A DNA stretch of 64,000 nt from Effrenium voratum. Its lineage: Eukaryota; Sar; Dinophyceae; Suessiales; Symbiodiniaceae. Position numbers and translations under genes: made by a program. Numbering within the stretch: the first letter of the stretch is position 1; every line of letters starts with the position of its first letter. The notes beneath the pieces are model-generated. The model was given only the letters and a program-made list of their open reading frames with translations, was not told where the DNA came from and ran no database searches. The stretch lies in assembly GCA_963377175.1 (NCBI GenBank), contig CAUJNA010001591.1, positions 427,501 to 491,500 on the forward strand. The letters run 5' to 3'. This document shows positions 45,264-63,906 of the stretch, piece by piece.

Positions 45264-45285
45264 GCTGACTAACTAACTAACTAAC
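44199..45285. repeat. Composite satellite units: CTAA arrays plus CGCGCGTCAG words (left of the retrotransposon)
   Basis: Two composite units start at about 44,199 and 44,776 with GCCGCCTTC and a C run. CGCGCGTCA words, a GAGTTTGAGTGAGGTTACAGG block and CTAA/GCTA tetranucleotide arrays follow. The first unit is almost the same as 63,409-63,975 on the other side of the retrotransposon. The retrotransposon sits in the CTAA array at the end of the second unit. Confidence 0.9.
45281..45285. repeat. Target site duplication, left copy (CTAAC)
   Basis: CTAAC directly precedes the TG of the 5' LTR and CTAAC follows the CA of the 3' LTR. Five bases is the usual size for copia integrases. The surrounding CTAA repeat makes chance agreement likely, so this is supportive only. 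Confidence 0.6.
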
Positions 45286-45634: not shown

Positions 45635-45652
45635 GGTTATCAGCCGTAACTA
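45635..45652 (+). other. Primer-binding site, probably for a half-tRNA primer
   Basis: GGTTATCAGCCGTAAC starts immediately after the LTR and lacks the TGG expected for a tRNA 3' CCA end. Its complement, GGCTGATAACC, has the layout of an anticodon arm: stem GG, loop CUGAUAA, stem CC. It differs by one base from the CUCAUAA loop of initiator tRNA-Met. Drosophila copia is known to prime from a 5' half of initiator tRNA-Met, so an internal tRNA primer fits. Confidence 0.5.
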
Positions 45653-45732: not shown

Positions 45733-48700
45733 ATGGCGTCTTCGGCGAGCCCAAGTACTGCAACTTTTGGGAACAGCAGCTCAGAGGGATCCAATGGATT
45801 GATGGCTCTTCCTGCGGTGATGGATATGGTTGCAGATTCACAGGACGAACCTGGGAGCGGAGGTTCCGCGCTATTCAGCGACATATCTACTCCCACAAGA
45901 TCATGGAAGCAGATCGATGTTCATCAGGAGTCGAAGAAAAGAGAATCCCCACCGAGAAGATCATCATCTTCGCCTGCGACACCACGGACGTCGCAGAAGG
46001 GCGTGAGATCGACGTCGAAGGGTGGGAGGTCAAAATCACCCACCAGTGCAGATTTTCGCGCCGTGATCAAAGAGAAGAATAAGATGGAGGTGGAGATCGG
46101 GGAATATCAAAAGACACTTGATGAAATGTCGGCAGCAATGGCGAATCTTAACCAAGAAGACTATGGAAGCACCATCCGGATCCAGGAGCTGGAAAGACGA
46201 TGCGAGATTGCCAGCAAGCAGTCGGGACATCTAGTGAGTCACCACCAACACCACATGGCTGAGGCATGGCGCAAGTTTGAGGAAGAAGCCCAACAGATGC
46301 GCAAGGTGGAAATGAACGCATTTCAGTACGGGGAGAAGAAAGACATGGAGTCGAATATTATAATGCAACAGATGAGGCAAGCTGAAGGAACTATCATGGA
46401 GCAGAAGCGGGAGATTGCATTGATGAAATCCTACATGGCAAGCGAGAAGTCGGCCGCGCAGGAATCAGCTATACGTGCAAATCAGATACACCGTGAGGCT
46501 TCACAACAGATATCAGTTTATCAGCAACAGATCAGAGGCATAGAATCTTCTACATCTATCGAGAAGTTCAACGAGGAGGAGATGGTCCAAAGTCTGAAAT
46601 CACAGTTGGAGCATGCACTCGTCAAGCGCCCCGAGACGTACTCTTTGGAGGACTCCAGGGAACAGCTGATGGCGAGGCTGAATGACGTTACAGTATTTGC
46701 GGAACAGGAATCGAAGAGAGCAGATTGCTTGCTTCGCGAAAAGGAAGAGATCGTCAAACAGTATGAGTCCGACGTGTCGATGAAGGACCAGATGATTGCT
46801 GTCGAAGGTGGTCATCGTCAAGATGCGATCTTGGAGTTAGCCCAGGTCAAAGAAGAGAAACAAGAGGAACGGCGCACGATGGACGAGAAGTCGAAGGAGG
46901 CTGAGTACTGGAGATTGACAGCTAAGGGAATGTACGATGAGTACCTCGAGGAGATGCATGAGCTTCAGAGACAACTGAAGGAAAGAGAGGCGACGCTCAA
47001 GCAAGAAGAGAGTTTTGTACGCCAACTCGATGCTGACAACGAGGAACTACGTGCACACAAGAAGCTGGAGACACAGGAAGCCTCCAGCAGCAAAGATGGA
47101 CATCGTGAACGAGCAGTAGTGAAACGCGCTGAGGGAGGAACCCAGGCTAATTCAAATAGGATAGACAAGAAGGTGGCTGGGTCAGTCCCGTCATCGTCTT
47201 CAAATCAAATCCCTAATTCGTCGCTGATGCCAGGTTCGATCCTCTTTCCGTCTTTCGGTGATCCAATGATCGATGTACACCTATCCCAGATGCAAGGGGT
47301 TGTTGGGCATGTCCCACAATCCACTACTACGACTGGTGGTGGTGATGGGGGGGGAAACAACGGTACTACGCCCCCATTGGATTACGGTGGATTCCCGCCC
47401 AATGGGAATGGGCAGGGAGCGGGTCGACGTCAGTTGAGCCTCGCTGGTGGCGGAGGAGGACCTCCGGATGATCCACCCGATGATGAGGATGAGGATGACG
47501 ACGACGAAGGAGATGAGGAAGACGAGGAAGAAGAAGAGGAAGAAGACGATCGGACACGGAGGAGACGAAGGAGATCGAGAGATAACCGAGAGATCAAGAA
47601 TGATCGACCGAGAATCTCGAGGAAAGAGGCCGAGAGAGTATCTATTCCGGCCTGGCCAAAGATCCATCAACTTGATACCTGGAAGATGCAACTGCTGATG
47701 AATGTTCTGAGCGCATGTGCGGATCCAGATACCGACGCATGGACGAAATGGCTGGAGCAGGCTCTTGGGTTGAACCCAGACCTGGATTTGCTTAGCGATT
47801 CAGGTGGCGACAGATTTGCTACGATAGATATTAAGATGGCCATGGGCATGCAGAACATGCTGAAACAAGCACCTGACGAAGCCAAGGACGTATACCTCGA
47901 TGCTACACGACACTCTGAACTACGACATCAACAAGGGGTGATCGTGAAGGGACGAGAGTTGGTGGCATTAGTTATGCAATCATTCAGAACTTCCGATAGA
48001 ACGGATCTTGTCTACCACATCGAGCATCTATTCAACCTTGACTTTCCTGGCGACAAGAACTTGGTCATGTTCAGGAACAAATGGTATGATTTGCTGCTGA
48101 AGATGAGGAGCGAGGACAGACCCAGTAAGCTGGCTCTCAGAGACATCCTTTACAGGAAGATCAAAGGGAGCAAGAAGATGGAGTTCGGCCTCAATGCCTA
48201 CCATAGACTACCGGACAAGCATCCTCAGAAGACGTATGAATTCTTATTGGCGTTGATCGACTATCAGATCAAGGCAGATCGGGAAGACCTGATGCTCGAC
48301 ATGAAGGAGAAATCGGTCAAGTCGATGATGAAGTCAGGCGGGAAGGATGCGGCTCCAGCAACTGGCAAACAGGAGAACCAGGGTGGCAAGGGCAGAAAGG
48401 GGAAACCCGGTGGACCTGATGCCGCTCCTGTGCTCCCAAAAGCCAAGGCAAAGGGCCACGCTGGCAAGAACGGCAAGTCCGACGGTGCCAGCGACAGAGG
48501 CAAGAGTCCGGGCGGAAGCAAGGATAATCCCTGCTGGTACCACTTCAAATCGGCGAAGGGGTGTGTGAAAGGAAATGAATGCACTTTTTCCCACAGCAAG
48601 AAGACGGAGCATAAGTTGGAGAGCATGTCCAAGGGGAAAGGAAAGGGCAAATCCAAGTCCAGATCATCGTCACCAAAGAGAGATGATGGAGCATGCTTCG

Positions 48701-50292
48701 CGTTTCAGAAGGGGAAGTGCGATAAGGGAAGCGCTTGCAAGTATAGGCATGAGCTCATCAAGAACAATTCAGCTCCAGCAACGTCAAATGACAAGGCGCA
48801 AGCCAAGTCGAAGGCTGCCGCCAAAGCCGCAGCGCCAGCCATTGCAAGGAGGGCCATCGCAATGCCCGCGATAGTCCTAAAGCAATCGGCTCCTGCAGGG
48901 AAGGTAAGCTTCAAGAAGGACGTTGATCAGGTCGAACCGGATGAAGCCGAGACTGTCTACCACGAGCACAATGACGACGCGATGAGCGAATCATCGAGAT
49001 GGTCTGGCGAGTCCGAGATCCCCGAGAAAATGGTGTGGTTCAAGGAAGTGCTCGACGTCGACGAGAATGGGGAGATCACCTACCTCGAAGACGAGAGAAG
49101 GCAATGGGAACGAAAAGGGGAATGGTACGGTTATGAGGACAATGAGAATGAGCCTTATCAGTACGTGTACGTCGACGAGAAGAAGTTCAAAAGCAGTGAT
49201 CATCGTGAATTATCAGCCTATCAAGTCCAACGATCATTGATACGTGCGAAGATACTGAGAGAAGTGGTGGATGATGTATATAAGAAGCACTACTTCCCGG
49301 TGACCAAGGAGAGCAGCATAATGTTCGAGTATGATCGGAACAAGGACGAGATCAAGGAATCGGCTGTCGACTGGAAGAAACAGCATGGTATGCCGAAGAA
49401 CGTTTTCGCCATGTCAACGTGCATCAGCAAACGGGTGAAATGGTTGATGGACACCGGATGTGGTCATGATCTCATCGGAAGAGCCAAGGCGAAGAGCCTG
49501 GGTGTCGACATCGTGAAAGATGACGACGAGATCGTGTTCCAGACCGCGAATGGTTCCACTTCCACATCTGATGTGGCCAAGATAGTCGTGGACGAGTTGG
49601 ACGAGACTGTCGAGCCGCATGTATTGGATGAGACACCCACGGTATTGTCAGTGGGGAGGAGATGCATGAAGATGGGTTATGCATTTCACTGGATGCCTGG
49701 TAAACTACCTTTCATGGTTACGCCAAAGCAGGGATTCGTGCACTTGCAGGTCAAGGACGACATCCCGTACCTAGTGAGTGATGGTAAGCTTCGGAGTAAC
49801 AGGCATCGCCCTACGATAGACGACCTCAAGGAGCACTTTTCGGAAGTATTGGCGATGGTAACGAACGACGAGGCAGATCAGGGAGGTGACGATGAGAACG
49901 ACGTCACACCCGCCGCTGTCGGTGAGTCCGCAGAGGCCGAGGGCGAACACCACGACGGGGCATTCGACTTCGGGCCACCCGGAGGAGCCGGTCCGGTACG
50001 TCCGCCTCCCGTGGCTGAGGAAATACCTGTAGATGTTGGGTCAGTCCCGCATCGACATGGTGATGCCGAAGCTCACGAGGAAGAGGCTGACGAAGATGAT
50101 CCAGATGCCGGAATCGAAGTAGACGTGTACGAAGGATCATCAATAAAGAGGAAAGTGGGAGTCCTCAAGAAGGACGCCAACTCCATAGCTCATTTGCTTA
50201 CACACAGATACCGAAATCCCTTCTGCGAATCATGCGTCAAGGCAAAGATGAGACACTTCAGATCACGAACGGGAGCATTCAAAGAGAAGTGA
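45733..50292 (+). CDS. Copia Gag-protease polyprotein with N-terminal part of integrase
   Basis: This 1,519-residue frame starts at the first ATG after the primer-binding site. Residues about 106-456 form a long coiled coil rich in Glu, Gln and Lys, probably for Gag assembly. Residues 577-617 are an acidic run followed by an Arg run. A helical capsid-like region spans about 620-860. Two CCCH zinc fingers follow: Cys934-x9-Cys-x5-Cys-x3-His954 and Cys988-x7-Cys-x5-Cys-x3-His1006. They replace the usual CCHC knuckle and should bind the element RNA. The aspartic protease motif is WLMDTGCGHDLIG with Asp1240. The C-terminus carries the integrase HHCC zinc site (His1487, His1491, Cys1498, Cys1501). 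The frame stops at 50,290, just before the integrase core, which continues in the -1 frame. Three copies of the TGGGTCAGTCCC/GSVP site type occur across the element, two of them here (47,178 and 50,037). Confidence 0.93.
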   Translation: MASSASPSTATFGNSSSEGSNGLMALPAVMDMVADSQDEPGSGGSALFSDISTPTRSWKQIDVHQESKKRESPPRRSSSSPATPRTSQKGVRSTSKGGRSKSPTSADFRAVIKEKNKMEVEIGEYQKTLDEMSAAMANLNQEDYGSTIRIQELERRCEIASKQSGHLVSHHQHHMAEAWRKFEEEAQQMRKVEMNAFQYGEKKDMESNIIMQQMRQAEGTIMEQKREIALMKSYMASEKSAAQESAIRANQIHREASQQISVYQQQIRGIESSTSIEKFNEEEMVQSLKSQLEHALVKRPETYSLEDSREQLMARLNDVTVFAEQESKRADCLLREKEEIVKQYESDVSMKDQMIAVEGGHRQDAILELAQVKEEKQEERRTMDEKSKEAEYWRLTAKGMYDEYLEEMHELQRQLKEREATLKQEESFVRQLDADNEELRAHKKLETQEASSSKDGHRERAVVKRAEGGTQANSNRIDKKVAGSVPSSSSNQIPNSSLMPGSILFPSFGDPMIDVHLSQMQGVVGHVPQSTTTTGGGDGGGNNGTTPPLDYGGFPPNGNGQGAGRRQLSLAGGGGGPPDDPPDDEDEDDDDEGDEEDEEEEEEEDDRTRRRRRRSRDNREIKNDRPRISRKEAERVSIPAWPKIHQLDTWKMQLLMNVLSACADPDTDAWTKWLEQALGLNPDLDLLSDSGGDRFATIDIKMAMGMQNMLKQAPDEAKDVYLDATRHSELRHQQGVIVKGRELVALVMQSFRTSDRTDLVYHIEHLFNLDFPGDKNLVMFRNKWYDLLLKMRSEDRPSKLALRDILYRKIKGSKKMEFGLNAYHRLPDKHPQKTYEFLLALIDYQIKADREDLMLDMKEKSVKSMMKSGGKDAAPATGKQENQGGKGRKGKPGGPDAAPVLPKAKAKGHAGKNGKSDGASDRGKSPGGSKDNPCWYHFKSAKGCVKGNECTFSHSKKTEHKLESMSKGKGKGKSKSRSSSPKRDDGACFAFQKGKCDKGSACKYRHELIKNNSAPATSNDKAQAKSKAAAKAAAPAIARRAIAMPAIVLKQSAPAGKVSFKKDVDQVEPDEAETVYHEHNDDAMSESSRWSGESEIPEKMVWFKEVLDVDENGEITYLEDERRQWERKGEWYGYEDNENEPYQYVYVDEKKFKSSDHRELSAYQVQRSLIRAKILREVVDDVYKKHYFPVTKESSIMFEYDRNKDEIKESAVDWKKQHGMPKNVFAMSTCISKRVKWLMDTGCGHDLIGRAKAKSLGVDIVKDDDEIVFQTANGSTSTSDVAKIVVDELDETVEPHVLDETPTVLSVGRRCMKMGYAFHWMPGKLPFMVTPKQGFVHLQVKDDIPYLVSDGKLRSNRHRPTIDDLKEHFSEVLAMVTNDEADQGGDDENDVTPAAVGESAEAEGEHHDGAFDFGPPGGAGPVRPPPVAEEIPVDVGSVPHRHGDAEAHEEEADEDDPDAGIEVDVYEGSSIKRKVGVLKKDANSIAHLLTHRYRNPFCESCVKAKMRHFRSRTGAFKEK

Positions 50293-53200
50293 AGACGTTC
50301 GGTGACCTGGTGACGTTCGACTTTGTGACGGCATCAGGAGATCATGAAGTGGAAGGCAGGTATGCGCTCATCATCCGGGACATATATACCGGAATTATCA
50401 TGGCTTATCCCACCGCGAGAAGAGACACTGACTCAGTCGTCAGGGCTATCAAGCACTTCTGCGGGAGGAGGAAAATCAAGCAGGTATATTCGGATGACGG
50501 CCCGGAACTGATCAATGCGTGCGTGGAGCTGAAGCTGAACCACGACCTATCGCTGCCTGGACGGCCGCAGAACAATTCCCTTGCTGAAAGAACAAATCAA
50601 TTCATCATTGACCAGACTTCGGCTTGTCTAGTACATGCCGGTCTACCCACGTGTTATTGGGTGCAGGCCATCACCACTCTGTGCCATCTCATGAACATCG
50701 AAGAGGTGAACGGATCGAGTGCATGGATGAGGCTGCATGGCGAGGAGTTCAAGGGCGAGAAGATACCTTTTGGTGCGCTAGTGGACTTCAAGCCGAGTGA
50801 AGCACGAGGGGGAAAGAGGGAGAAGTTCGAGCCGAGAGGGGAAACTGGTATATTTGCTGGATATGTGTTGAGCACTGGTATGCATTGGGCAAACAAGTAT
50901 CGTGCTTGGGCACTTACTGCATTTGCGGGTGCAGAGCTGAACATCAAGAAGGCAAAGGTTCCACCTCGGTTGAGAATGCCACATCAGACGGAGAGGATGA
51001 TCCTGAAATCTCCTCTGACATTCCCAATACAACAGAAGTACAAGGTTGCCAACGAGACTTTGGAAGGAATAGAGATGTCTATCGATGCAATCGGTCTGGA
51101 TGCACGTGACCGCCTGATCGAGGATGAGGACTACGAGCCTGAATTGCTGCAGAGTGACGAGAAGCGACTGCTTGACGATGAAGTCGATCAGATCGCTGGT
51201 CTACTGCTCGACGATGGCCCGGAGGTAATCGCCGGAGATCGGGGGGATCATGCAGGAGAAGAAGATGCTAGACCGAGCTCCTCAAAAGGGAAAGGAGATG
51301 GACACTCTAAGGGCGATGAGAAGGTTGCGAAGTCCGACCTTCCACACGTGTCAGTTGGGCTACCCGGGGATGGTATCACGTACGTCAACGACGATGGCAA
51401 GGAGGTTAAGATCGACAAGGCCGGGAGACCGTATCCTGTCGGGAAGGACGGATTCAGGCTAATGAAGACATCGAGACCTCCAGAGTTCACTCCTGAAGAA
51501 TGGAAGATGATGAGTAAATATTACACCAAGGAAGAGAAGGCCGAGGTGAAGGGCGGTGGCAAAAGGAAAGAGGAAGATCCCAAGAGTAAAGAGTCTGAGA
51601 TTTCCGCGCCGGCAGAGGCACGGACATTACAGATGCCCGGTGGTAAGAGAATTCGAGCGATGCTTCGGAACCGCTGGGGTGGAGTAGAATGGCAGTACAA
51701 TTGGGGATTGCGGAAGAACATATCAAAGATCAAGAACCCAATGGATGGGAAGCACTTGGCTGAGCTTGAATGGGTCAGGATTGTTGTTAATCCTGTCGAC
51801 GGGGTGGTTGTTCTCATGGATTCCAAACAATCCCAAGACGTCATGAGACGAAACGTTCAGCTTGAGAAAGAATTTGAGTGTCTGGTAGTAATTTATGCCT
51901 GGAAGTTCAAGTCTGAGGAGCGATCAAAGTCGACTCCAAACTGGACGAAGGCGGTTGCATCAGTCATGGAGAGTCATAAAGACGAAGCTGAGACGGCATC
52001 GGGGACGGATCCATCGGTCGACGAATCGACGGACCTCACCTGGTATGAATGGGAGGAGTCTGCTGAGATAGTTTCTGGAAAAGTGCCACTCGCAATGCCT
52101 GCGATAGGCGAGGACGGTGAAGCCAAGAAGTACCCATCGATGCCGTGCGTGACTTCTGAGCGAATACAGCACAGAGAGAAGGCTGTGAAAGTTGTACGAT
52201 TCTTCGACGCTTTAGTATCCAGGCCGGTAGGCCGGAAAGAGATGTTGACCAACCCTGATGCATTGGCATCAATGAAGAAAGAGTGGTCGGGATTAATCGA
52301 CCAGGGGGTCTTCGATCTTGGCGCGGTGCGTGAATATGACGCTGTAGCCAGAGAAGCAAAAGCGAAAGGGGAAGAAATACACATGGCTCGCGCACATGGC
52401 ATTTGCGTTGAAAAGCACTCACAGTTGCCTGTTGGTGATCCTAAGAGGAAGTTCAAGGGTAGAGGCGTGTTGCTGGGGAACCAAGTGAAGAACCAAAGCT
52501 TTGAGGCTGCGATGTTTCAAGATTTGGGGAACTCTCCTGCTTCATTTGAAGCCTCGCGTTGGGCGGATTTTCTGGGTTGTCATGATGGCTGGGATGTGCA
52601 GATGGCCGACGCTGTTCAGGCGTACATACAGGCCACCTTGAGAGGCACGCCGTGTTGGATTGAATTGCCACCGGAGGCCGTGCCAAGTGAATGCAAATGG
52701 GATAAGTACAGAAGACCAGTCGTCCCGTTGAGGAAGGCGCTGTACGGACACCCAGATGCGGGAACATTTTGGGAGCAGCACTGCGATGAGTCGGTGCGTG
52801 CCGTTGGTTTTGAGCCCATCGGCGAAGAATGGCCTTCAGTGTACATTCATGAAAAGCTCCAGCTTGTTCTGGTTGTGTATGTCGACGACTTCAAAATGGC
52901 AGGGCCGCAGAAGAACCTTGCCCAAGGGTGGAGCATGTTGCGTACACGTTTGAAGATTGAGCCCGAGACTGGACTTGACATGTACCTTGGTTGCAATCAA
53001 AGCAAGGGAAACGTCACTCTCGGGAACGGACACCGAGTAACAACGGTGACCTATGACATGGAACAGTTCCTACGTTCCTGTGTCGACCGCTATCTTGAAG
53101 TGGCGGGCGACGTGAAGTTGAATAAGGTTGTCACCCCTGAGTTGCATGAAGAAACAAAGAATCACGTCTCACGGAAGCCTGCCAGAGAGGGGCCGTCAGT

Positions 53201-56200
53201 CGTGTGCAATTGGTGTAACAATCTTGTGCCCACCGACGGTTCTGCCACAGTGCCGGACCAACGGGGAGGGACTCCTGAGTTGGCCATGAAGGAGCCCGTG
53301 CGTGGACACCTTGCTCCGCATGCCGCTAGCGTACTGATGAAGTTGCTGTACGGTGCGCGGATTGCTCGCTTCGATTTGTTGCGGCAAGTGAATCGCCTAG
53401 CACGGAACGTGCATAGGTGGACTGACTCCGATGATCGGGGTTTGCATCACTTGATGTGCTATGTGCATCATACCAAACATTGGCGCATGGTCGGTTGGGT
53501 TGGAGACCCTATGGACGATGTGCACTTGGCCTTGTATGCGGACGCTGACTTTGCGGGATGCATTGACTCGCTGCGTTCCACCTCCGGTGGACACTTGAAT
53601 ATACAAGGGCCTAATACCCGGTTTCCGTTGTCTGGCAGCTCTAAAAGACAGGGTTGTGTGAGTCACTCCACTCCCGAGGCCGAGATTGTTGCGGCCGATG
53701 TTGCCATGAGATCGATGGGTATGCCCGCTCTCAAGCTGGTAGAGCGGATTCTCAAGAAGTCTCCGAACTTTGTGTTCTATGACGATAACAAGGCTATGAT
53801 CGGTGTCGTGCGATCGGGGAGAAACCCCACGATGCGCCACCTTGAGAGAAGCCATGGTGTTAGCATTTCGTGGATGCATGAGATGTTCACACGTGATTAC
53901 ATGTACTTGGCGTATGAGGTCACCGACAGGATGGCGGCCGATATTTACACCAAGGCGTTCAATGATGGGCGCAAATGGAAACATGCATGTTTGCAGATTG
54001 GTCTACTTGACCCGAGCTTGCTGTCTGACCCGGATACCCTCAAGGCGCTCACACCCACGTGTGATCCCATAAAGGGGACCATGCAGACCGCTTCGGGAAC
54101 AGTTGACGGAGTTCCAACATTTCCGTACACACACATTCCGATCATGCCCCCAGACCTGTGGTGGTCTGGATTAACATCTAAAGAGGGATTGCATGAGCAT
54201 GAAGGACATGATCCGGTTGTTGTTGCCAAGGGACCCAGATTGATGCGTGTGAAACCTCCACTCGCGGTTATGACACCGTTTGGGAGCAAGTGGCTTCGTT
54301 CCACTTGGTTTCTGAAGAATGGGTCATGGCTCAAAGTTGAGGATAGAGTTGACCCGGGGCTACAATGTGTGCGAATTGATGGTTGGGTTGAACGCGCAGT
54401 TTGGCAGTTTCATCCCGTACCGGTCGCTGCACCGGCGCGGGAACGGTCTCCACGACCACGACCAATTCACGTCGGGTCCGGGGATGTTGACATGCAGTCC
54501 GTGCTGGCCGCATTTGTTGAAGAACTGTCGAACGAGCGCATAGAGTTGAAGTGTGTTAACGACCTTGCTTTGGAAACGTTGCTCCGATTGAAGTTGCTCA
54601 TGCGTTGTCTGCATATCAATCACGAGCAGCTTGTCCCTGGTCGTTGTTTTGTTCCGTATCGCATTGCGGTGAAGCACAAACCACAGTTAGCGCCGGGTAT
54701 TGAACTCGCGATGGTCAAACATGACGGTGGTGTGCTTCGCGCTCCTGTTCATGTCTCGCTTCCTGGTATGAGAACTCGCACAGTCGTCACTCTTTACAGT
54801 GTTGACTTGGCTCGGCCCATCGTGCTGATGGCATGTTCCGAACCACGTAACTGGTTCACTGCTCTTGCCCGCCATGACGGGCCGCAGGTTGTCACCATAA
54901 CTCTGGTTGATGACTTACTGAGCGAGTACGGGGGGAGAATCGCCAGACATGTGCTTACCAAACCTTCCGATTTGTTGTTCTTCGCCGGGCCTTGCACGGG
55001 GGGATCATCATGGGCACGCCTCAACAAGACTCGCGGAATTGACACCGCAGAGAAAATCGAGGCCAAACAAAGAGAATTTTGGAGATTGTTTGAACGGTTC
55101 GTTGAGATAAAACGGCATGCCATGACAAAACGAGCCGCGATTTTGTTTGAGTTGCCTGGAAGTTGTGATTATTGGAAAGATGAGAGACTGCATGAGGTTG
55201 TGCATGATGGGACTAGTCACGAGTTTGATGGGTGTCGCTATGGCTTGAAACAAAGATATGCAAAGAAACCCATGCCAATCAAGAAACCATGGAGAGTTGT
55301 ATCATGGAACTTTGAACTTGGTGGCTCGTTGTCTAAGAAATGCAATGGAAACCATGAGCATGGACCTTGTGCTGGTCGTGAAACCAAAGAAACCCAGTTG
55401 TACACGTCTATAATTGTGGGTGTGATCCTTCGCCGTTTTCGTGCTCGAGCAAGGTGCCTCAAACCGGCACCGTTGAAACTCGCTCTTGCTTGCATTACGC
55501 GAAGGAGATCGCGGAAGCACCAAGCTACTGCGAGCGAAATCTGCACCACCCCAACTGCACAACCGAGGTGCTGGGTCAGTCCCGAACCTCTGGTGCATAC
55601 GGGGAGCTGGGTCAGTCCCGAACCCCAAGCTTCAAGGAGGAGCTGGACGAGTTCGTCACCTCAATCTGAAGCTGGGATCATATTGGGACAATTCCGTGGC
55701 TCCATTTGCAGCTGCTTATTTTGGGTTTTCCTGGTTCTGGAGAATATCATCAAGATGACTGCCAATCCGACTGTCGTCAATACGAATGAGTTCTTCTGCG
55801 TGCCTGTTGGGAAATCTAGGCAAGCAGCAATCTTCTTGGGAAATTTGGTGAAGAACGCCATCGAGGATGGCAAGAGGATGCCCAAGAGGATGGAGATGAA
55901 CAGCGACCTGGGTATGTGCGTGAAGTGGATCGAGGACATCGGCGTCCCCGCTATTTATGCATACTCTGCGTACTATTCTGCCAAGGGCCGCGGGATGATG
56001 AAAGGTGAAGGGCAGTCTATGAGGGTTGCCTTAGAGTTCATCAGCAAAGTTTTCGGACAGCTTTCTGCCGACGAATGTATGCTTGGATGGAGGGAATTCT
56101 GCAGCAAGGGAAAGAAGATCGTGTCGGCGCTGAACCAACTTTGCGGTGAGGCAACGATGCTAGCGAAGAACCCCGAGTTGCTCGACGTAACCAAGTACTG

Positions 56201-58763
56201 CATAGAAGGGGCGGATATGTTGAGATCAATCGCGAACATCTGGGATCTCGCACTAGGCGTGGCCGAGGACAACGATGAACGGTCGTTCAAAGCTGCATTC
56301 CACCAGGACACCCCGGTTGGGGAGGTGTACAAAGAATTCATCAGCGACGAGTCATCTAGGGCATCGTCATCGAGAAGGTGGAGGAGCTCCGAGGAGTTCC
56401 AGACGACTGCAGAGTTTGAGAGGCACGATCGGAGAATTGCAAAGTACAGAGATCGAAACTGGGGGAAAGTGTTCACGTTGAGCGTGATCAAGGCTCCCAA
56501 GATCGACTCCTACGGTCGTGGTTCCAAGGACGACTACCAGAAGAATTGGGACCTTGGGTTGGTATACCAGAATGAGCTGCAGACATCGATGAAGAACCTC
56601 GCATATGCACTGAGGAGGGATGAGAATGCCAGCCAGAACAACCTATTGCGCTGGATGATCTGTGGGTCAACCCCCAGTGACATCTCTGATGCGTGCATCG
56701 GGGCGGTCAATTCGCTCATGTGCGTATCGTTCATCATGAGGAGATTGCAGCCATTGCTCGGTGAGAAGGACTCCAAAGATCAGTCGTATACAGCTTATTT
56801 CCGTCCAGACAAAAGGGAGCTGAACGATCTCTACCGGGAGATTGAGTACGCCAGGGATTTCCTATGGTGCATCGATATGATCTATGAGTCGAAGCTGCCT
56901 GCGATGAACATCAACTCCATCAGTTTGGCACCGCACGCGGCTGACAGGGCCGCTGAGAACCAAGATCGGCGCAAGTGGGTAAGCTGGATGAAGGAGATCG
57001 AGAAGAAGGCCGAGAAGGACGTCATGATCGAATTCTTCCAGAATAAATACTGCACGATTCATGAAATCGAGAGGGAACTGGAGAAGTACCCCGAGGATTT
57101 CGTGGTTGGGGAAGAGCCGACATGGTGGGTGATGGGCTCATCGAAGACGGAGCCGCCACGGAAGACGGAGCGACAGCAGAAGTCGGCATCAAGCTCCGGA
57201 CAAAGGAGTCAAACCGCTGGTGGGTCAGTCCCCCAGCCGGGAGCTCCAAGTGGGGGGTCGCAAGCCAGCGATGCTGTCAAGATCGACAACGAGATCATCG
57301 ACTCCATTTTCCGAATGAACTCTGGCGGTGACGACGACAGATGGGTAATTATCAACCCAACTGCTGGACATGATACCTACACTTCATTCGAAGGGGGTAT
57401 TACTTTGAGCGGCGCGACTGTCAATGTGAAATTCAACATAGACAACAATACGGGGTACCCAATCATACAAACTGTATTTGGGCCGTGTCTTGCAGAAGGC
57501 AAGAACGCAACGTATTGGGAGTGTATGCTGAGATGCCTGACCTCTTCGCTATTGCACTTCGAGGAGAAGACCAGCGCGGAGAAGATTATTCTTTCCTATG
57601 TTGGGAAGGGGAATGCGGCATGGCTACAGCTGTATGCTTTCTTGTGTGCCCAAACAGGATGCTTGATTACTGGACGCCTTCCGGGCGCCAAAGCCATCAA
57701 CGCGTTGATTCAGGCGGAGAAGAACCCGGACAACGCACCTGGACAGTTGAACCGGATTATCAAGAGGCAGAAGAGGAGCCCCATTGGCGAGGCGACGATT
57801 CGCGACATGATGATCCACAAGAAGAGCTTCTTGGTCCTGGATTGGCCCCTGAGGGCCGTCAACTCGAAAGGGAGCACGAAGACCTTCCAGATGATGGTCA
57901 ACGAACAGGGATGGACAAACATCGAGGAGAGATCATACTATGGGTCGAGTGAGCAAGTCTCCTCACCCAACGACACGTTGAATATCATCTCCCGATTGCA
58001 GAAGCTGGATAAGCTCATCGCTGAACGGCGGAGGCGAGACATGGATGACTCACCAATGTCGGTGCACATCTGGATGTCGCTATATGATTGGGTGTGCATG
58101 AGAGGATGCGGATGGCAGGTGACCGCCAACCCCATCATCGACTCCCTGCAGAAGGCGATATCTGACCTCGTCAACACATGCAAGGGCCTGGTCGTGGTGT
58201 GCGTGAATCGCGATGTTGCTTTCCATGGTGGAAGAGGGGACTTGGGGACGATCGCCAATAAGGTTAGCGAGATCTGCAAGGCGGCAGGCGCGCTGGTGAC
58301 CGAGAACGATCGCCTGTGGCGCGTGATCCATGCGCTCACAGGAAAGAACTACAAGATCCCTGGGAGCTCGAACTTGCAACATTTCCTCTTGAAGCGACTG
58401 CTGATTGAGAAATCCATCGATGCGGTCGCACCAAGCAACGCGTTTGTGCGTGAGCTGGAGGAGACGTGCATAAACGAGCCCGACCTTCGGTTCAACATCC
58501 CGAAGAACATGGAGGAATCGAAGGTGAAGTTCGAGTACAAGCCGACCTTCACTGCACAATCGAAGAGGAAACAAGAGCAGCAAGATGAAGGACACGGCGA
58601 GCAGGATGCTTTTGGGAAAGCCGATGTCGGTGATCCACGTCTTCGATGGTATACGGTCACGGAGCTCAGCAAGTTTATCTGCGAACTTTGCGCTAAAGAG
58701 ATGCAGATGAGCAAGTCGAAGGTGCTCGGACCGAATCGAAGTACAATCCCTCTTCTTGCGTGA
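50232..58763 (+). CDS. Copia Pol polyprotein (integrase core, RT, RNase H, C-terminal domain) fused to a 3' module
   Basis: The frame has 2,843 codons. The ATG at 50,232 lies inside the integrase zinc site, so translation probably enters by a -1 shift from the upstream frame near 50,270-50,290; no textbook slippery heptamer is visible. The integrase core shows Asp30 (FGDLVTFDF), Asp88 (VYSDDGPEL) and Glu119 (NNSLAERTN). Reverse transcriptase follows, with the motif A Asp near 793 and YVDD at 883-886 (VVYVDDFKMAG). RNase H follows with ALYADADFAG at about 1101-1110 and a copia-type end near 1,240. An uncharacterised conserved-looking domain spans about 1,500-1,735 (separate entry). A basic, low-quality linker joins it to a separate module that starts at Met1842. 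All catalytic motifs are intact. The fusion of Pol to the 3' module in one frame may be accidental, because another frame looks more like protein at 55,454-55,669. Confidence 0.92.
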   Translation: MRQGKDETLQITNGSIQREVKTFGDLVTFDFVTASGDHEVEGRYALIIRDIYTGIIMAYPTARRDTDSVVRAIKHFCGRRKIKQVYSDDGPELINACVELKLNHDLSLPGRPQNNSLAERTNQFIIDQTSACLVHAGLPTCYWVQAITTLCHLMNIEEVNGSSAWMRLHGEEFKGEKIPFGALVDFKPSEARGGKREKFEPRGETGIFAGYVLSTGMHWANKYRAWALTAFAGAELNIKKAKVPPRLRMPHQTERMILKSPLTFPIQQKYKVANETLEGIEMSIDAIGLDARDRLIEDEDYEPELLQSDEKRLLDDEVDQIAGLLLDDGPEVIAGDRGDHAGEEDARPSSSKGKGDGHSKGDEKVAKSDLPHVSVGLPGDGITYVNDDGKEVKIDKAGRPYPVGKDGFRLMKTSRPPEFTPEEWKMMSKYYTKEEKAEVKGGGKRKEEDPKSKESEISAPAEARTLQMPGGKRIRAMLRNRWGGVEWQYNWGLRKNISKIKNPMDGKHLAELEWVRIVVNPVDGVVVLMDSKQSQDVMRRNVQLEKEFECLVVIYAWKFKSEERSKSTPNWTKAVASVMESHKDEAETASGTDPSVDESTDLTWYEWEESAEIVSGKVPLAMPAIGEDGEAKKYPSMPCVTSERIQHREKAVKVVRFFDALVSRPVGRKEMLTNPDALASMKKEWSGLIDQGVFDLGAVREYDAVAREAKAKGEEIHMARAHGICVEKHSQLPVGDPKRKFKGRGVLLGNQVKNQSFEAAMFQDLGNSPASFEASRWADFLGCHDGWDVQMADAVQAYIQATLRGTPCWIELPPEAVPSECKWDKYRRPVVPLRKALYGHPDAGTFWEQHCDESVRAVGFEPIGEEWPSVYIHEKLQLVLVVYVDDFKMAGPQKNLAQGWSMLRTRLKIEPETGLDMYLGCNQSKGNVTLGNGHRVTTVTYDMEQFLRSCVDRYLEVAGDVKLNKVVTPELHEETKNHVSRKPAREGPSVVCNWCNNLVPTDGSATVPDQRGGTPELAMKEPVRGHLAPHAASVLMKLLYGARIARFDLLRQVNRLARNVHRWTDSDDRGLHHLMCYVHHTKHWRMVGWVGDPMDDVHLALYADADFAGCIDSLRSTSGGHLNIQGPNTRFPLSGSSKRQGCVSHSTPEAEIVAADVAMRSMGMPALKLVERILKKSPNFVFYDDNKAMIGVVRSGRNPTMRHLERSHGVSISWMHEMFTRDYMYLAYEVTDRMAADIYTKAFNDGRKWKHACLQIGLLDPSLLSDPDTLKALTPTCDPIKGTMQTASGTVDGVPTFPYTHIPIMPPDLWWSGLTSKEGLHEHEGHDPVVVAKGPRLMRVKPPLAVMTPFGSKWLRSTWFLKNGSWLKVEDRVDPGLQCVRIDGWVERAVWQFHPVPVAAPARERSPRPRPIHVGSGDVDMQSVLAAFVEELSNERIELKCVNDLALETLLRLKLLMRCLHINHEQLVPGRCFVPYRIAVKHKPQLAPGIELAMVKHDGGVLRAPVHVSLPGMRTRTVVTLYSVDLARPIVLMACSEPRNWFTALARHDGPQVVTITLVDDLLSEYGGRIARHVLTKPSDLLFFAGPCTGGSSWARLNKTRGIDTAEKIEAKQREFWRLFERFVEIKRHAMTKRAAILFELPGSCDYWKDERLHEVVHDGTSHEFDGCRYGLKQRYAKKPMPIKKPWRVVSWNFELGGSLSKKCNGNHEHGPCAGRETKETQLYTSIIVGVILRRFRARARCLKPAPLKLALACITRRRSRKHQATASEICTTPTAQPRCWVSPEPLVHTGSWVSPEPQASRRSWTSSSPQSEAGIILGQFRGSICSCLFWVFLVLENIIKMTANPTVVNTNEFFCVPVGKSRQAAIFLGNLVKNAIEDGKRMPKRMEMNSDLGMCVKWIEDIGVPAIYAYSAYYSAKGRGMMKGEGQSMRVALEFISKVFGQLSADECMLGWREFCSKGKKIVSALNQLCGEATMLAKNPELLDVTKYCIEGADMLRSIANIWDLALGVAEDNDERSFKAAFHQDTPVGEVYKEFISDESSRASSSRRWRSSEEFQTTAEFERHDRRIAKYRDRNWGKVFTLSVIKAPKIDSYGRGSKDDYQKNWDLGLVYQNELQTSMKNLAYALRRDENASQNNLLRWMICGSTPSDISDACIGAVNSLMCVSFIMRRLQPLLGEKDSKDQSYTAYFRPDKRELNDLYREIEYARDFLWCIDMIYESKLPAMNINSISLAPHAADRAAENQDRRKWVSWMKEIEKKAEKDVMIEFFQNKYCTIHEIERELEKYPEDFVVGEEPTWWVMGSSKTEPPRKTERQQKSASSSGQRSQTAGGSVPQPGAPSGGSQASDAVKIDNEIIDSIFRMNSGGDDDRWVIINPTAGHDTYTSFEGGITLSGATVNVKFNIDNNTGYPIIQTVFGPCLAEGKNATYWECMLRCLTSSLLHFEEKTSAEKIILSYVGKGNAAWLQLYAFLCAQTGCLITGRLPGAKAINALIQAEKNPDNAPGQLNRIIKRQKRSPIGEATIRDMMIHKKSFLVLDWPLRAVNSKGSTKTFQMMVNEQGWTNIEERSYYGSSEQVSSPNDTLNIISRLQKLDKLIAERRRRDMDDSPMSVHIWMSLYDWVCMRGCGWQVTANPIIDSLQKAISDLVNTCKGLVVVCVNRDVAFHGGRGDLGTIANKVSEICKAAGALVTENDRLWRVIHALTGKNYKIPGSSNLQHFLLKRLLIEKSIDAVAPSNAFVRELEETCINEPDLRFNIPKNMEESKVKFEYKPTFTAQSKRKQEQQDEGHGEQDAFGKADVGDPRLRWYTVTELSKFICELCAKEMQMSKSKVLGPNRSTIPLLA
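54700..55440 (+). other. Uncharacterised PCTGGSSW domain at the C-terminus of Pol
   Basis: Within the Pol frame, residues about 1,500-1,735 contain FFAGPCTGGSSWARLNKTR (Cys1588), ELPGSCDYWKDE (Glu1640, Cys1645), FDGCRYGL, IKKPWRV and a Cys/His cluster NHEHGPCAG. I recall very similar blocks in many dinoflagellate copia-like proteins, but this is memory and not a search. The order Pro-Cys motif, then Glu-x-Pro motif is faintly like cytosine-C5 methyltransferases (PCQ...ENV), but no SAM-binding FxGxG is visible. Function unknown. Confidence 0.5.
55454..55669 (+). CDS. Alternative C-terminal end of Pol, -1 frame
   Basis: A 71-codon frame overlaps the Pol-to-module linker, ends in TGA at 55,667-55,669, and reads as mixed, acidic protein ending near KEELDEFVTSI. 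Both TGGGTCAGTCCC copies in it are read as LGQSR. It looks more natural than the Arg/Pro/Ser-rich Pol-frame translation of the same DNA. It is therefore likely to be the real end of Pol after a one-base frame change near 55.44 kb. Confidence 0.4.
   Translation: MPQTGTVETRSCLHYAKEIAEAPSYCERNLHHPNCTTEVLGQSRTSGAYGELGQSRTPSFKEELDEFVTSI
55755..58763 (+). other. Accessory 3' module 1 (unknown, about 1,000 residues)
   Basis: From Met1842 of the Pol frame the composition changes to ordinary soluble protein: a helical N-terminal half, a Ser/Gly/Pro linker near 57.14-57.26 kb (with TGGGTCAGTCCC), then an alpha/beta-looking half. The latter has SFLVLDWPLRAV, VHIWMSLYDWV and a late SSNLQHFL, which is weakly like the block order of an SGNH hydrolase but without a clear catalytic Ser. 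A Cys pair (CELC, residues 2817-2820) lies close to the frame end. Its start AAGATGACTGCC is a plausible independent initiation site. I do not recognise the family. Confidence 0.55.
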
Positions 58764-59571
58764 ACTGTTGCGCGAACTGGAACGCGGACACGAACGGTAT
58801 TGCAATGTCTATCGAGGGGAAGAAAATGTACACGCGCCTCTTCGCGGAATGCGTGGTGGCAATCCCCGACCTTCAAAACCTCATGGTGGACGTCAACAAC
58901 ATCCAGGCCATGATCACGATCATACGGGAGCTCGTGTATTCAAGCTGAAGAAGGAGCTTTCCCACGTGGGATTCGTGAGCATGACTGTGGATCAAGCAGC
59001 GCAGTTCTACAACAACGGTCACGGGAAGCAATTGTGCGCATCCCGGGATGTGATCGTGTGCAAGAATTCCGAGGGAGTCGAGGAGAGGATGTCCATCTTC
59101 TTGATAGGCAAGGATCTTGGCAATGTGGCATATTCGTCCTGGATCAAGAGTGTGCTCGACCAAGGAACGATGTATGAACTCCTGGGACAAACCACGAACG
59201 AGGAATCCTTGGGAGACGTCGTCGAGATGGTGTTGGGATTCTTTGAGGTGATGTCGTACTTCCAGCACGAACTGCCACTGTGGAAGGATGCATGGAAGAT
59301 CAAGAGGGAGTTCGAGCAGTCAATAGTGCGACACCTCGCTGGGAACGTGACCCACACGACGGGCCAGAACAGAAAGCGGAACAGACCGTCCGCACAGCTC
59401 GGCGTGCCCACGAAGGAGGTGCTTGACATCATGAACAAGGTCAAGCCCAGACATCCACGATCCCTGATCACCGAGCCCTCTGCACAAGGTTCCAAGAGAA
59501 AGGCCACGGAGGGCGAAGATGAGGGTTTGGTCAAGCACCAGACCCGAGTCGAAGTTCTCAGCCAATGCTGA
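58756..59571 (+). CDS. Accessory 3' module 1, continuation frames (unknown)
   Basis: After the Pol frame stops at 58,763 the protein-like signal moves to the -1 frame for 58,730-58,948 (containing CVNC and MSIEGKKMYTRLFAECVV). It moves by -1 again to this frame from about 58,945 to 59,571 (starting KLKKELSHVGFVSMTVDQAA). The first part of this frame, before 58,945, is Arg/His/Gly-rich and probably not translated; there is no ATG start. The C-terminal part is basic (RKRNRPS, GSKRKATEG) and may be a nuclear signal. This pattern suggests one ancestral protein interrupted by indels. No family is recognised. Confidence 0.5.
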   Translation: MRELLRELERGHERYCNVYRGEENVHAPLRGMRGGNPRPSKPHGGRQQHPGHDHDHTGARVFKLKKELSHVGFVSMTVDQAAQFYNNGHGKQLCASRDVIVCKNSEGVEERMSIFLIGKDLGNVAYSSWIKSVLDQGTMYELLGQTTNEESLGDVVEMVLGFFEVMSYFQHELPLWKDAWKIKREFEQSIVRHLAGNVTHTTGQNRKRNRPSAQLGVPTKEVLDIMNKVKPRHPRSLITEPSAQGSKRKATEGEDEGLVKHQTRVEVLSQC

Positions 59572-62395
59572 GAAGGAAGACAAGAAGCAGCGAGTGATCG
59601 ACGGGCGGAGAGCGGCACTAGGATTCCTGGAGTCAATGGAGAAGTGCATGGGAGATATGGGGATCTGCAAGAAGTGCGCGAACCTGGCCCACGACGGCGA
59701 CTGCAAGGACATTGAGGAGGCTGCTGGAAATGAGAAGGCGATGAAGGTGCTCCGTGAGCTACTCAGCAGTGACCCTGTTTCATCTGATGAAGACATGGGG
59801 GATACGGAGGAACCGTCCTCATCAACGTCCAAGGAAAGAAAGAAAGGAGGACAAGCAGGGAAAGAAACAATTGAGATGTACAGCTACACCATTAACTTGG
59901 TGGAGATGGCTGACACGGCTGAGGGAGGAGAGCTACAATGTGGTGGCGTCGACCTCACCTACAACCCGTGCGGGGACAGCAGGACGTTCAAGAAAACGCT
60001 CGAGGTGGGATGTGACACCATCCCGTGCTACATCCCGAAGTATGGCGATGTGAGTGATGTGCACTTGCCATGGGCGTATGCGTCCATCGTTGACCCCAAA
60101 TACTTTCCCAAAGGTGCAATCCTTGAGCAAGTGGACGTGATGCAACTTGGCAAGAGTGTCAACTTCTGCATTGCTCCTTTCGACGGTGCTCCACTATGCA
60201 GGATTGGTGATGATCGCTCGGTATTTACTACAAGGGACCAAGCAAACCAGCTATCTCACGACCTATGCAGAGTCCTTCGACACAAAATCGGCAATTGCCG
60301 AGGAAGTGCTTTCAGGTGCGACGAAGGTGGTTGGGTCGACATTGATGCAGTCATTGACGACCGAAACAACGACATATTCCCACCTAACACCTCGAGAGCG
60401 AAACGATACATGGGCATCATGGAGGTGATCAAGTGGCAGGAATCTGGACACAGGAAATCGAGATTTCAGGTCCTGGCAGCAAGGTTTCCGAGCATCATGA
60501 ACCCGAACGACACGAGGGCGGCCAGGGAGGAAATGACCAAAGCTGGCATGGATCGGGACGACATCGACAGGATGTTCAACAGATGCGATGGATGGTACAG
60601 ACCTTGGTGCATCCGAGTCACAACTGGTCACAGTGATTTTGGATTCATGAGCTCATCCGCACTGGCGAATAGGTATTCCGCAAGAATGGGTGATTCTCTC
60701 GGAGGAGCATTCCATGTGACGTATGTGGAAAACCTGCCAAGCATCGTACGCTGTGGGTTAGTCCCCGGCGGAATCGATGGCGGCAACAGGCTAGCACTGC
60801 ACTTCGGGGCGTTTGCTCCATGGGATGAGATGAACGTGGCGACGAAGACGACGCTGCGGAACGTGAGGAGAGGGGATCCGATTGCGATCATCTACATTCC
60901 CAGTGCAACCCTCGCGCGGTATGGAGCTGGAGTCGCGGCTAATGGGACTTTCATGGTCTTTGACGTGATCCCGTTCTATGAGGTCAAGTCCATTTGGATT
61001 GGCAAAAGCAACGGAGGGAAGCGCCTGGAGTACGCTGACATCAAGAGGGCGTACTCGAAGTGTGTGGAGAACGAGATCTGCCCTGGCTTTGTCAACTCAT
61101 CCCAAGAGTCGGCAGCGATGTTCCTCCAGAACGTCACAAAGATCAGCGAGAGGATGCCGGAGACTGAGACAGGTGCCGATAATCTGCACTACATCGTTGA
61201 CATGGTTAATCGTGCCTGCGAACTCTATCGAATCAACAAGATGGAAGAGTTCAATGCACAGGTCAACGAGGTCCGGGACGAAATCAGCAAAGTCGTCATC
61301 CTGAATGACGAGACATGGGAAGGACTGAGGTGCCGGATATGTCCATCATGTGCGACCGCGATCCCCACCTGCTTCTGCTTATGCCTGGAGTGCGAGGCAC
61401 AACTGATCTCCATCGGAAGATACTACATTCACATCAAATCCGATGACGAGGAGGACAACCAAAACCCCAACGTCTCTGGAGATGCCAGGCGTGCACAGGA
61501 AGAAGCTAACCACGATGCGGCAGCACAGGAGGATGAAGACGAAGCGGAGGAAGTTCCGGGAGAAGATGACGACATGGACACGCAAGGATATACATCCGGC
61601 TATGCGTCAGAAGAAGAAGACAGCGGTTGGCATTACCGCGACACCGATCTGGCGTCACGGGACATTATAAGTTCCCAACGGATGGCGATCTGCCTTGACG
61701 AGCCGCGTGAGGCTCAGTACATGGCAGGATTTATCGCACTCCAGCTGTCCAAGATGTGGGGGATGTTTGAAGGTGGTGAGGAGAGAACGATGAATGCCGG
61801 ACTCGAAGGGAGGCCGGGCTGCCCTTATCACAATGACTTCAAGAGGTACCCCAACATCACCGATCAGGATCAGGAAGGTATACTCTTACCATCAACAGCG
61901 AAGAAAATTTCTCAGTCGGAGAATGTTCGGTCGAGATCCTTCCGATCGGTTGAGGAGCGTGAAGATTATATTCGTATGATGGTGTGCAAATGCGAGGGAC
62001 TTTACACATTCTACAAGCTGTGGATTGCAGCGAGAATCCTCGATGTCACCAAGGAAGAAATGAAGCTCCTGGTCAAGGACCGAGTGCACCCGGTGGGTGA
62101 TATTATTTTCAGATGTTTTGCACTAGCTTTCAACTGTAAGTATATATCATTCGTGAGGGATGGCCTGAACCTTGGCAAGAATGGTTACACGGTCAACGTG
62201 AGCGCCATCATCTCGGCCATCGACCCGAACAAATGCGACACACCCCTGCTGGATTGGTGCCTTCGGAAAGGGCACTGGTTGCCAGAGGACTACAACAAGA
62301 AGTGTGTCCGGGCACGAGAAGCCCAGAAGAACTTGGACGAGGAGTTCCGCCGACGTACCCATAGGCTGTCCATTGGGGACAGGTATGCTTCGTGA
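59519..62395 (+). CDS. RNA 2'-phosphotransferase (Tpt1/KptA)-domain protein carried by the retrotransposon
   Basis: The frame has 958 residues. Residues about 245-500 match the Tpt1/KptA fold: VLRHKIG gives Arg254-His255, GGWVDIDAV follows, CIRVTTGHS gives Arg366 and His371, AFHVTY gives His399, and NRLALHFG gives Arg424. The block FMVFDVIPFYEVKSI then resembles the family end. These four residues (Arg-His-Arg-Arg) are the known catalytic set of the NAD-dependent enzymes that remove the 2'-phosphate left at RNA splice junctions. Some members also ADP-ribosylate 5'-phosphate ends. The gap between His255 and Arg366 is about 60 residues longer than in bacterial Tpt1, so there is an insertion. 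Flanks: a Cys cluster at 42-54 (CKKCANLAHDGDC), a Cys-rich segment from 605 (RCRICPSCATAIPTCFCLC), an acidic run near 650-700, and a C-terminal helical domain of unknown type. The start codon is uncertain; the frame probably continues from the preceding one. Confidence 0.85.
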   Translation: MRVWSSTRPESKFSANAEKEDKKQRVIDGRRAALGFLESMEKCMGDMGICKKCANLAHDGDCKDIEEAAGNEKAMKVLRELLSSDPVSSDEDMGDTEEPSSSTSKERKKGGQAGKETIEMYSYTINLVEMADTAEGGELQCGGVDLTYNPCGDSRTFKKTLEVGCDTIPCYIPKYGDVSDVHLPWAYASIVDPKYFPKGAILEQVDVMQLGKSVNFCIAPFDGAPLCRIGDDRSVFTTRDQANQLSHDLCRVLRHKIGNCRGSAFRCDEGGWVDIDAVIDDRNNDIFPPNTSRAKRYMGIMEVIKWQESGHRKSRFQVLAARFPSIMNPNDTRAAREEMTKAGMDRDDIDRMFNRCDGWYRPWCIRVTTGHSDFGFMSSSALANRYSARMGDSLGGAFHVTYVENLPSIVRCGLVPGGIDGGNRLALHFGAFAPWDEMNVATKTTLRNVRRGDPIAIIYIPSATLARYGAGVAANGTFMVFDVIPFYEVKSIWIGKSNGGKRLEYADIKRAYSKCVENEICPGFVNSSQESAAMFLQNVTKISERMPETETGADNLHYIVDMVNRACELYRINKMEEFNAQVNEVRDEISKVVILNDETWEGLRCRICPSCATAIPTCFCLCLECEAQLISIGRYYIHIKSDDEEDNQNPNVSGDARRAQEEANHDAAAQEDEDEAEEVPGEDDDMDTQGYTSGYASEEEDSGWHYRDTDLASRDIISSQRMAICLDEPREAQYMAGFIALQLSKMWGMFEGGEERTMNAGLEGRPGCPYHNDFKRYPNITDQDQEGILLPSTAKKISQSENVRSRSFRSVEEREDYIRMMVCKCEGLYTFYKLWIAARILDVTKEEMKLLVKDRVHPVGDIIFRCFALAFNCKYISFVRDGLNLGKNGYTVNVSAIISAIDPNKCDTPLLDWCLRKGHWLPEDYNKKCVRAREAQKNLDEEFRRRTHRLSIGDRYAS

Positions 62396-63010: not shown

Positions 63011-63020
63011 AAATGGGGGA
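63011..63020 (+). other. Polypurine tract
   Basis: AAATGGGGGA directly abuts the TG of the 3' LTR. It is a typical copia plus-strand primer with one pyrimidine. Confidence 0.8.
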
Positions 63021-63369
63021 TGTTAAAACCCTCTAGGCCCCGTGCCGAAATTGGGTAGCTGTTCTGAGGTCCTTGTTGGTGTTGCTTCCCAAGTTCCATT
63101 GATCGCCATTTGGCTCAAGACACAATTGAGGTTCAAGATCTGATGTGTGACTGCATACATACGTGATCGGCATTGAGAGCGAAAACACTTTGCTTGCGCT
63201 GCATTTGTCAGGACCACTGTTGTAACTATCATTCCTTCTCCCTTACAACGTTTACACGGGTTCGGCTATAACGGCATCGTCCGTATACACCTTTCTACGT
63301 GGTTGGTATTACAGCTTGAGGGTTCGGTGCATAGCGTCCCACGGGACGTCACCTTGCCGTCTCTTGACA
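63021..63369 (+). repeat. 3' LTR, 349 bp
   Basis: By eye this is identical to the 5' LTR, including the spliced-leader-like site at 63,105-63,119. It is followed directly by CTAAC, matching the left flank. Confidence 0.95.
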
Positions 63370-63862
63370 CTAACTAACTAACTCTCTCACTCACTCACTC
63401 ACTCACTAAGTAGCCGCCTTCCCCCCCCCCCGCCTCTAGCCTCCGCGCGTCAAGTAGCCCCGAGCGTCAGGTACTCTTTGAGTTTGAGTGAGGTTACAGG
63501 TTAAGTACTAACTCACTAAATGACTAACTTAGTAGCTTTCGATCTACCTAACTAACTAACTCGATCATTAATTAGCTAACTAACTAGCTAGCTAGAACAA
63601 ACTAACTCATTAACGAACCACCAACTCTTTTTTGCAGCCTTTGCGCGTCAAATCCGCAGCGATCCCACGCGTCAGGCACCTGCTCTCGAGATCCCGCGCG
63701 TTGGGTACCTCCCTCCTCCCGCGCGTCAGGTGCCCCCTTTCCGCGCGTCAGGTACCGCGATACTTTTCCCCAGCCCGTGCGGCAACTAACCAACCAAGTA
63801 AGGAAAATAACTAATTAACTAACTAGCTAACCAACTAACTAACTAACTAACTAACTAACTAG

Positions 63863-63906
<44 letters not shown>

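Follow-up and report, generated by a model that had tools for sequence, protein, structure and literature searches.

A Tpt1/KptA domain carried and conserved in a high-copy copia retrotransposon of the dinoflagellate Effrenium voratum

Here, we report that a copia retrotransposon of the dinoflagellate Effrenium voratum carries, between two identical long terminal repeats (LTRs) and downstream of its Gag-Pol coding region, a domain of the Tpt1/KptA family (PF01885), in which Tpt1 transfers the 2'-phosphate of RNA to nicotinamide adenine dinucleotide (NAD+) in two steps (PMC6333775). The element lies in a stretch of 64,000 nucleotides (nt) of contig CAUJNA010001591.1 (assembly GCA_963377175.1, positions 427,501 to 491,500), hereafter called the window; unless a locus is named, coordinates are those of the window, and all features located in it are on the forward strand. 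The sequence itself establishes that the domain belongs to the family and has a complete catalytic tetrad, that it is linked to Pol and to the LTRs, and that it recurs and has been under purifying selection. We consider the chances about even that this is a genuine and selectively kept Tpt1/KptA domain which, as a standing part of a high-copy copia Gag-Pol polyprotein, acts NAD-dependently on RNA phosphates.

Identification of the Tpt1/KptA domain

The frame at 59519..62395 encodes 958 amino acids (aa), comprising the Tpt1/KptA domain, a Cys-rich stretch and a C-terminal part. An earlier note, made from the letters of the window alone, had proposed a Tpt1/KptA domain in this frame, and a PF01885 match above the curated cut-off (aa 242-460, 60242..60898; E-value 1.3e-7, 32.3 bits versus 26) bore this out. 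The catalytic motifs were also found where the note had placed them: Arg254-His255 (LRHK at 253, 60278..60283) as the first and second tetrad residues, Arg366 (RVTTGHS at 366, 60614..60616) as the third, Arg424 (NRLALHF at 423, 60788..60790) as the fourth, and His399-Val-Thr401 (FHVTY at 398, 60713..60721) as the counterpart of the NAD-binding HGT motif. The tetrad was mapped by aligning E. coli KptA to solved Tpt1 structures, including CthTpt1 (6e3a), whose tetrad is R18-H19-R68-R121 (PMC6333775). By alignment, R254, H255, R366 and R424 correspond to these four residues, and H399/T401 to the NAD-contacting H101/T103; the choice of R424 as the fourth residue is right because R121 is the Arg of GRQYVHLS. 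The NAD-arch arginine is represented in the window's domain by an Arg of VRRGDP, in the R450/R451 region.

PF01885 was found in 15 of the 19 members of set A2 at an E-value of 0.001, the window included. A profile-profile comparison by hhalign, in which the query combined the window family (window, P0008 and P0011) with divergent copia lineages (P0025, P0032, P0042, P0044 and P0058) and the target held 113 Tpt1/KptA rows, gave a probability of 99.1 and an E-value of 6e-18. The earlier note had also proposed to check the fold: the PDB entries nearest to a structure model of the domain were Tpt1/KptA over both lobes, the winged-helix RNA lobe and the ADP-ribosyltransferase (ART) NAD lobe, but the predicted local distance difference test score (pLDDT) of this model was only 68 and the underlying alignment included Tpt1 rows. 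A first AlphaFold2 model, built from 19 close rows, had a pLDDT of 31 and was not interpretable.

The copia setting described in the note was recovered as well. Two LTRs of 349 nt (TG...CA; 45286..45634 and 63021..63369) are 100% identical to each other, which suggests a recent insertion, and the domain lies between them and downstream of Gag-Pol, where a copia reverse transcriptase (RT) was recognized above the cut-off (RVT_2, aa 740-928 of the Pol frame, 52449..53015; E-value 1.2e-8, 35.3 bits versus 31.6).

Copies of the element and linkage of KptA to Pol

To evaluate the copy number of the domain, the genome (1.156 Gb, 3699 contigs) was searched. The KptA region was present in at least 118 scored places, including that of the window, with 97-100% identity, and 117 of them had no internal stop; these places are a scored subset of 2033 first-look candidates. 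Of 4317 candidates for an RT query (52329-53108), at least 147 were scored, each with 100% identity. Pairing of the 118 KptA rows with a subset of 45 RT rows out of the 147 revealed at least 33 same-strand pairs in which the RT lay upstream of KptA at a spacing of 7752-7846 nt (7841 nt in the window, which is included), and in eight of the 33 the open-frame length was equal for both.

Twelve of the 118 KptA frames were at least 4054 aa long. The longest one, of 5573 aa, can be compared with the approximately 5554 codons between the start of Gag and the end of the KptA frame in the window, and therefore, judged by length alone, KptA and Pol form one frame in such copies. The window copy itself is frame-broken: its element is split over several frames, and 59519-62395 represents only the 3' portion of what would be a longer polyprotein frame; longer frames without a break occur elsewhere. 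A related predicted protein, P0010, runs uninterrupted across two of the breaks and joins a further polyprotein piece in another frame (58756..59571) to both of its neighbours. Separately, in a predicted E. voratum protein (P0023), a PPPDE domain comes after the last part of the KptA frame of the element; this protein is either a gene-prediction chimera or a host fusion.

Occurrence in other copia lineages

A query with the Pol part, without KptA, retrieved 42 proteins, nine of which had all or part of the KptA region towards the C-terminus. The region was nearly complete in P0025, P0032, P0042 and P0058 and partial in P0044, all five of which are in the search profile, and partial regions were found by this profile in P0043, P0054, P0024 and P0065 (E-values from 1.5e-46 to 3e-7). 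P0054 and P0058 are from Symbiodinium sp. KB8. The other 33 Pol-related proteins had no convincing KptA match, although some of them may be merely cut short.

Four divergent copia polyproteins, 25-34% identical to the domain of the window, retain the tetrad. The window lineage and the four complete lineages are 23-34% identical to each other in pairs. Their alignment has 235 columns without gaps, of which 30 were invariant, including R254, H255, R366, H399, T401 and R424. The hypergeometric figure for these six residues (2.7e-6) is merely indicative because their positions were known beforehand. In the phylogenetic tree, the window lineage and the four divergent copia lineages formed one clade with a support of 100/98.

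Selection on the domain

Across copies, for which the earlier note had proposed a selection analysis, the ratios of nonsynonymous to synonymous change were between 0.06 and 0.11. The pooled ratio (pN/pS) for the window and 20 copies was 0.11, a value biased downwards because the copies were drawn from places ordered by their protein score. A second search was based on the 3' untranslated region (UTR); it scored 40 places, 13 of which had no partner in the protein-ranked list, and four of these 13 (L069-L072) were compared. Compared with the window, these four copies, chosen by the 3' UTR alone, showed 45 synonymous and 13 nonsynonymous changes, which corresponds to a ratio of 0.08, and each of them has insertions or deletions in the KptA region. 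Eight copies occurring in both lists differed from the window by 67 synonymous and 15 nonsynonymous changes (ratio 0.065); they carry 3' UTR labels but were taken from the protein-ranked list, and only L069-L072 are free of the ranking bias. The corresponding figures for the other twelve copies were 237, 70 and 0.085. By these ratios, the domain is under purifying selection during the spread of the element.

One may ask whether the similarity to Tpt1/KptA has arisen by chance, or whether a fragment of a host gene was randomly inserted only once. With 32 bits, the match is a modest one, and sequence searches of PDB did not yield Tpt1, but either possibility is almost certainly wrong, considering that the curated cut-off was passed and that many linked copies are under purifying selection. 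Both were ruled out by the profile-profile match (E-value 6e-18), the 118 places, the occurrence in other lineages and the 33 RT-KptA pairs; the last of these and the 118 places also contradict a single-copy insertion, which the note had raised against its own proposal.

Other KptA families in the same genome

A genome scan with PF01885 gave at least 150 scored matches, all above the cut-off, as a subset of 558 candidates. Besides the window family, three families could be distinguished.

In copia family II, a KptA frame of 1114 aa (E-value 2.3e-16) overlaps by 22 nt with the end of Gag-Pol, whose frame is 2589-2591 aa long. The KptA frames are located at L032:3291-6632 (minus strand), L033:3120-6461 and L047:3128-6469. 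The Gag-Pol frame has CCCH zinc fingers above the cut-off and an RVT_2 match below it (E-value 0.00039, 20.5 bits versus 31.6). Three elements of this family (C3246, C813 and C1112) contain Gag-Pol and KptA within LTR pairs of 143-146 nt with 97.9-100% identity, and each has one 5-bp target duplication when read by eye (GAATG, GGCTG and GAGAC); the Gag-Pol frame of C1112 is broken. Thus, the combination of copia Pol and PF01885 within one LTR pair, which the note had suggested searching for, exists in the window element and in three family II elements, RVT_2 being below the cut-off in the latter. In L033, the Gag-Pol stop codon and the first ATG in the KptA frame share nucleotides (ATGA, L033:3141-3144), an arrangement that could permit coupled re-initiation. 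Family II adjoins the copia clade in the tree with a support of 86/83 and long branches.

The tetrad of family II reads R-G-K-R, so that two of its residues are lost, and the residues on the NAD side are kept. A change of function is possible in this family. More generally, the domain might no longer be an enzyme and might instead bind RNA or have a structural role within the polyprotein. The KptA part of family II remains strongly constrained in spite of the lost tetrad residues (ratios of 0.03-0.04 in three copy pairs), and canonical bacterial KptA is only distantly similar to the domain of the window family. On the other hand, none of the six tetrad and H/T positions varies over five lineages, that of the window included, and we regard a non-enzymatic role of the window domain as distinctly improbable.

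Family I has a KptA frame of 1974 to 2062 aa (E-value 3e-45) followed by a frame of 1505 aa. In C1668 this second frame starts directly after the KptA stop codon, whereas in C1591 it starts 249 nt further on. The latter frame has Exo_endo_phos at its start (C1887) and RVT_1 inside (C1668), and family I is therefore a long interspersed nuclear element (LINE). Each of five motifs was found in 27 to 29 of the 29 loci, and the ratio was 0.08 for the 25 loci of equal length, a value biased downwards since the loci were picked by hidden Markov model score. An unselected cargo was rejected on the nonsynonymous to synonymous ratios of the window family, family I and family II.

Family III has the full tetrad and a LINE-type RT nearby. 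By eye, the RT was 11-23 kb upstream of KptA on the same strand in eight places and 28 kb upstream in one, with the reverse order in two; because this distance is not fixed, family III was not called one element. A 1958-aa frame of this family (L034:1323-7196) contains KptA and also matches AAA_30 weakly, below the cut-off, and frames for a LINE-type endonuclease, RT and ribonuclease H lie upstream of it.

The genome also has a host-like Tpt1 frame (L036), 81% identical to P0079 of Durusdinium trenchii and 77% to P0080. Family I was placed near host-like Tpt1 in the tree with weak support (82/73). A single clade of all retrotransposon KptAs was not rejected (P value of the approximately unbiased test, 0.26) and was not shown either, the branches being long.

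Organization of the window element

The first coding frame of the element (45733..50292) encodes Gag, with CCCH/Torus-like zinc fingers, and an aspartyl protease (aa 1233-1281); all of its Pfam matches are below the cut-off. The Pol frame (50232..58763) contains an integrase-like region, the copia RT, ribonuclease H and a long conserved 3' extension. No Pfam match for an integrase before the RT was found in this frame, where D,D,E-like motifs were seen by eye only; the integrase-like region is alignable with other copia polyproteins. A stretch within the same frame (54783-55451, aa ~1518-1740) is common to many copia Pol matches; its motifs FAGPCTGGSSW and ELPGSCDYW recall a decayed DNA methyltransferase, with no Pfam match. 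The 3' LTR is preceded by a polypurine tract (GGGGGA, 63015..63020). Candidate 5-bp target duplications (CTAAC) were noticed at 45281..45285 and 63370..63374, which are ambiguous and not decisive because both flanks sit in a CTAA-type repeat. The region 38000-45285 is dense in minisatellites and CACT/CTAA-type repeats, in one of which the element is inserted, and part of this repeat block reappears at 63368-64000.

A primer-binding site of 14 nt, GGTTATCAGCCGTA, abuts the 5' LTR (45635..45648). The same 14 nt occur in copia family II, and by eye the reverse complement of GGTTATCAGCCGTA looks like a tRNA anticodon arm with the loop CTGATAA. These features, together with the report that KptA acts on 2'-phosphates arising from anticodon-loop cleavage (PMC9503650), raise the question, already put in the earlier note, of whether the domain matures a half-tRNA primer. 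Cleavage of a tRNA within its anticodon arm would leave a terminal phosphate that blocks RT, and KptA, after a phosphodiesterase, would free this end. However, the exact 17-nt anticodon arm had no match in a genome search for the primer tRNA gene, LINE family I carries the domain and needs no tRNA primer, and family II lost two tetrad residues but shares the binding site. In addition, CthTpt1 contacts the vicinal 3'-phosphate (PMC6333775), and an internal 2'-phosphate is for this reason the better-documented substrate. Primer maturation is thus quite unlikely. Because copia elements and LINEs, which are primed differently, both carry the domain, we judged a general job on RNA ends to be the most likely one.

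Possible function of the domain

The domain is likely to act on RNA of the element or on tRNA, either by removing 2'-phosphates in an NAD-dependent manner or by ADP-ribosylating phosphate ends. After processing of the polyprotein, or inside the particle, the domain would use NAD+ to act on RNA phosphates, and would most likely strip the 2'-phosphates left after the re-joining of cleaved tRNA or element RNA. In this way, the element RNA, and the translation that the element needs, may survive RNA cleavage. A broader proposal, which we put forward tentatively and at less than even confidence, is that copia and LINE retrotransposons of dinoflagellates took up Tpt1/KptA and kept it for RNA repair or end-capping against host- or stress-driven cleavage of tRNA and element RNA, as in an arms race on RNA ends.

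It could also be that the domain adds ADP-ribose caps to the 5'-phosphate ends of the element's RNA or cDNA and thereby shields intermediates from nucleases or sensors. Human TRPT1 ADP-ribosylates the 5'-phosphate ends of RNA and DNA via the same tetrad, and tetrad mutants do not; Streptomyces KptA modifies 5'-phosphorylated RNA (PMC6582358). KptA-DNA complexes are among the PDB structures nearest to the model of the domain, which, as far as the model can be relied on, is consistent with such a role, and capping would suit LTR elements and LINEs alike. However, family II is without tetrad residues that human TRPT1 needs for the reaction, and we consider capping a rather unlikely explanation.

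Returning to a selectively kept, NAD-dependent Tpt1/KptA enzyme of the copia polyprotein, several observations weigh against it. Among the divergent lineages scanned singly, P0025, P0032 and P0058 gave no PF01885 match at an E-value of 0.1 and the match of P0044 (0.0074) was below the cut-off, and the NAD-arch arginine of the R450/R451 region is unaligned in several such lineages. Scores against the bacterial KptA equivalogs of NCBIfam were 12.4-14 bits versus the required 231-239 (for PRK00819, 13 bits versus 239), and a PDB sequence search with the window domain or profile A1 retrieved no Tpt1. Pfam scans of the window element recognized no RNA ligase or cyclic phosphodiesterase. Finally, the host-like Tpt1 frame exists, and therefore a copy of the element's own is not obviously needed.

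Comparison with known systems

The domain of the window resembles Tpt1/TRPT1/KptA proteins (PF01885) in its Arg-His-Arg-Arg tetrad, GH(S) motif and H-x-T NAD motif, and its two-lobe model, of middling confidence, tentatively matches Tpt1 structures. It differs from these proteins in being located within a retrotransposon polyprotein, in having inserts between the motifs and in scoring far below the bacterial equivalog cut-offs. The natural substrate of Tpt1 is not known in many bacteria and animals (PMC6333775, PMC6582358).

Element-borne KptAs have been described in polyproteins of positive-strand RNA viruses and in phage RNA-repair sets, some of them inside a polyprotein as here, and were proposed to repair or process nuclease-cut RNAs (PMC9503650). 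In contrast to the present case, their carriers are viruses, and the words 'retrotransposon' and 'transposon' do not occur in the main text of that paper. A tblastn search of the phage collection gave no match, and none of the 27 pattern matches in an IMG/VR scan was confirmed. The earlier note knew of no LTR retrotransposon with Tpt1/KptA, and, similarly, no report of a KptA-bearing retrotransposon was found in the accessible parts of the open-licence literature.

With respect to the carrier, the element is similar to other Ty1/copia elements of dinoflagellates: it shares their type of zinc-finger Gag and of aspartyl protease, and its RVT_2 Pol reaches an identity of 58.7% over 775 aa (with P0049); unlike them, it has approximately 8 kb of coding sequence after ribonuclease H, with the Tpt1 domain near its end. 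Captured nucleic-acid enzymes are also carried by SymbioLINE-Dnmt and SymbioDIRS-Dnmt3, retrotransposons of Symbiodinium, and in SymbioLINE-Dnmt the frame of the captured enzyme mostly precedes that of the RT (PMC5890265), an order also seen in LINE family I. DNA methylation is concerned there, whereas NAD-dependent RNA phosphate chemistry would be expected here, and in LTR/copia elements too.

If our reading is true, retrotransposons would supply RNA repair or capping chemistry of their own, a further case beside the DNA methyltransferases that retrotransposons of Symbiodinium have captured (PMC5890265). Retention of the domain over long evolution points to a substrate that is important for RNA-based replication, and the many natural copies and lineages make the question of this substrate testable.

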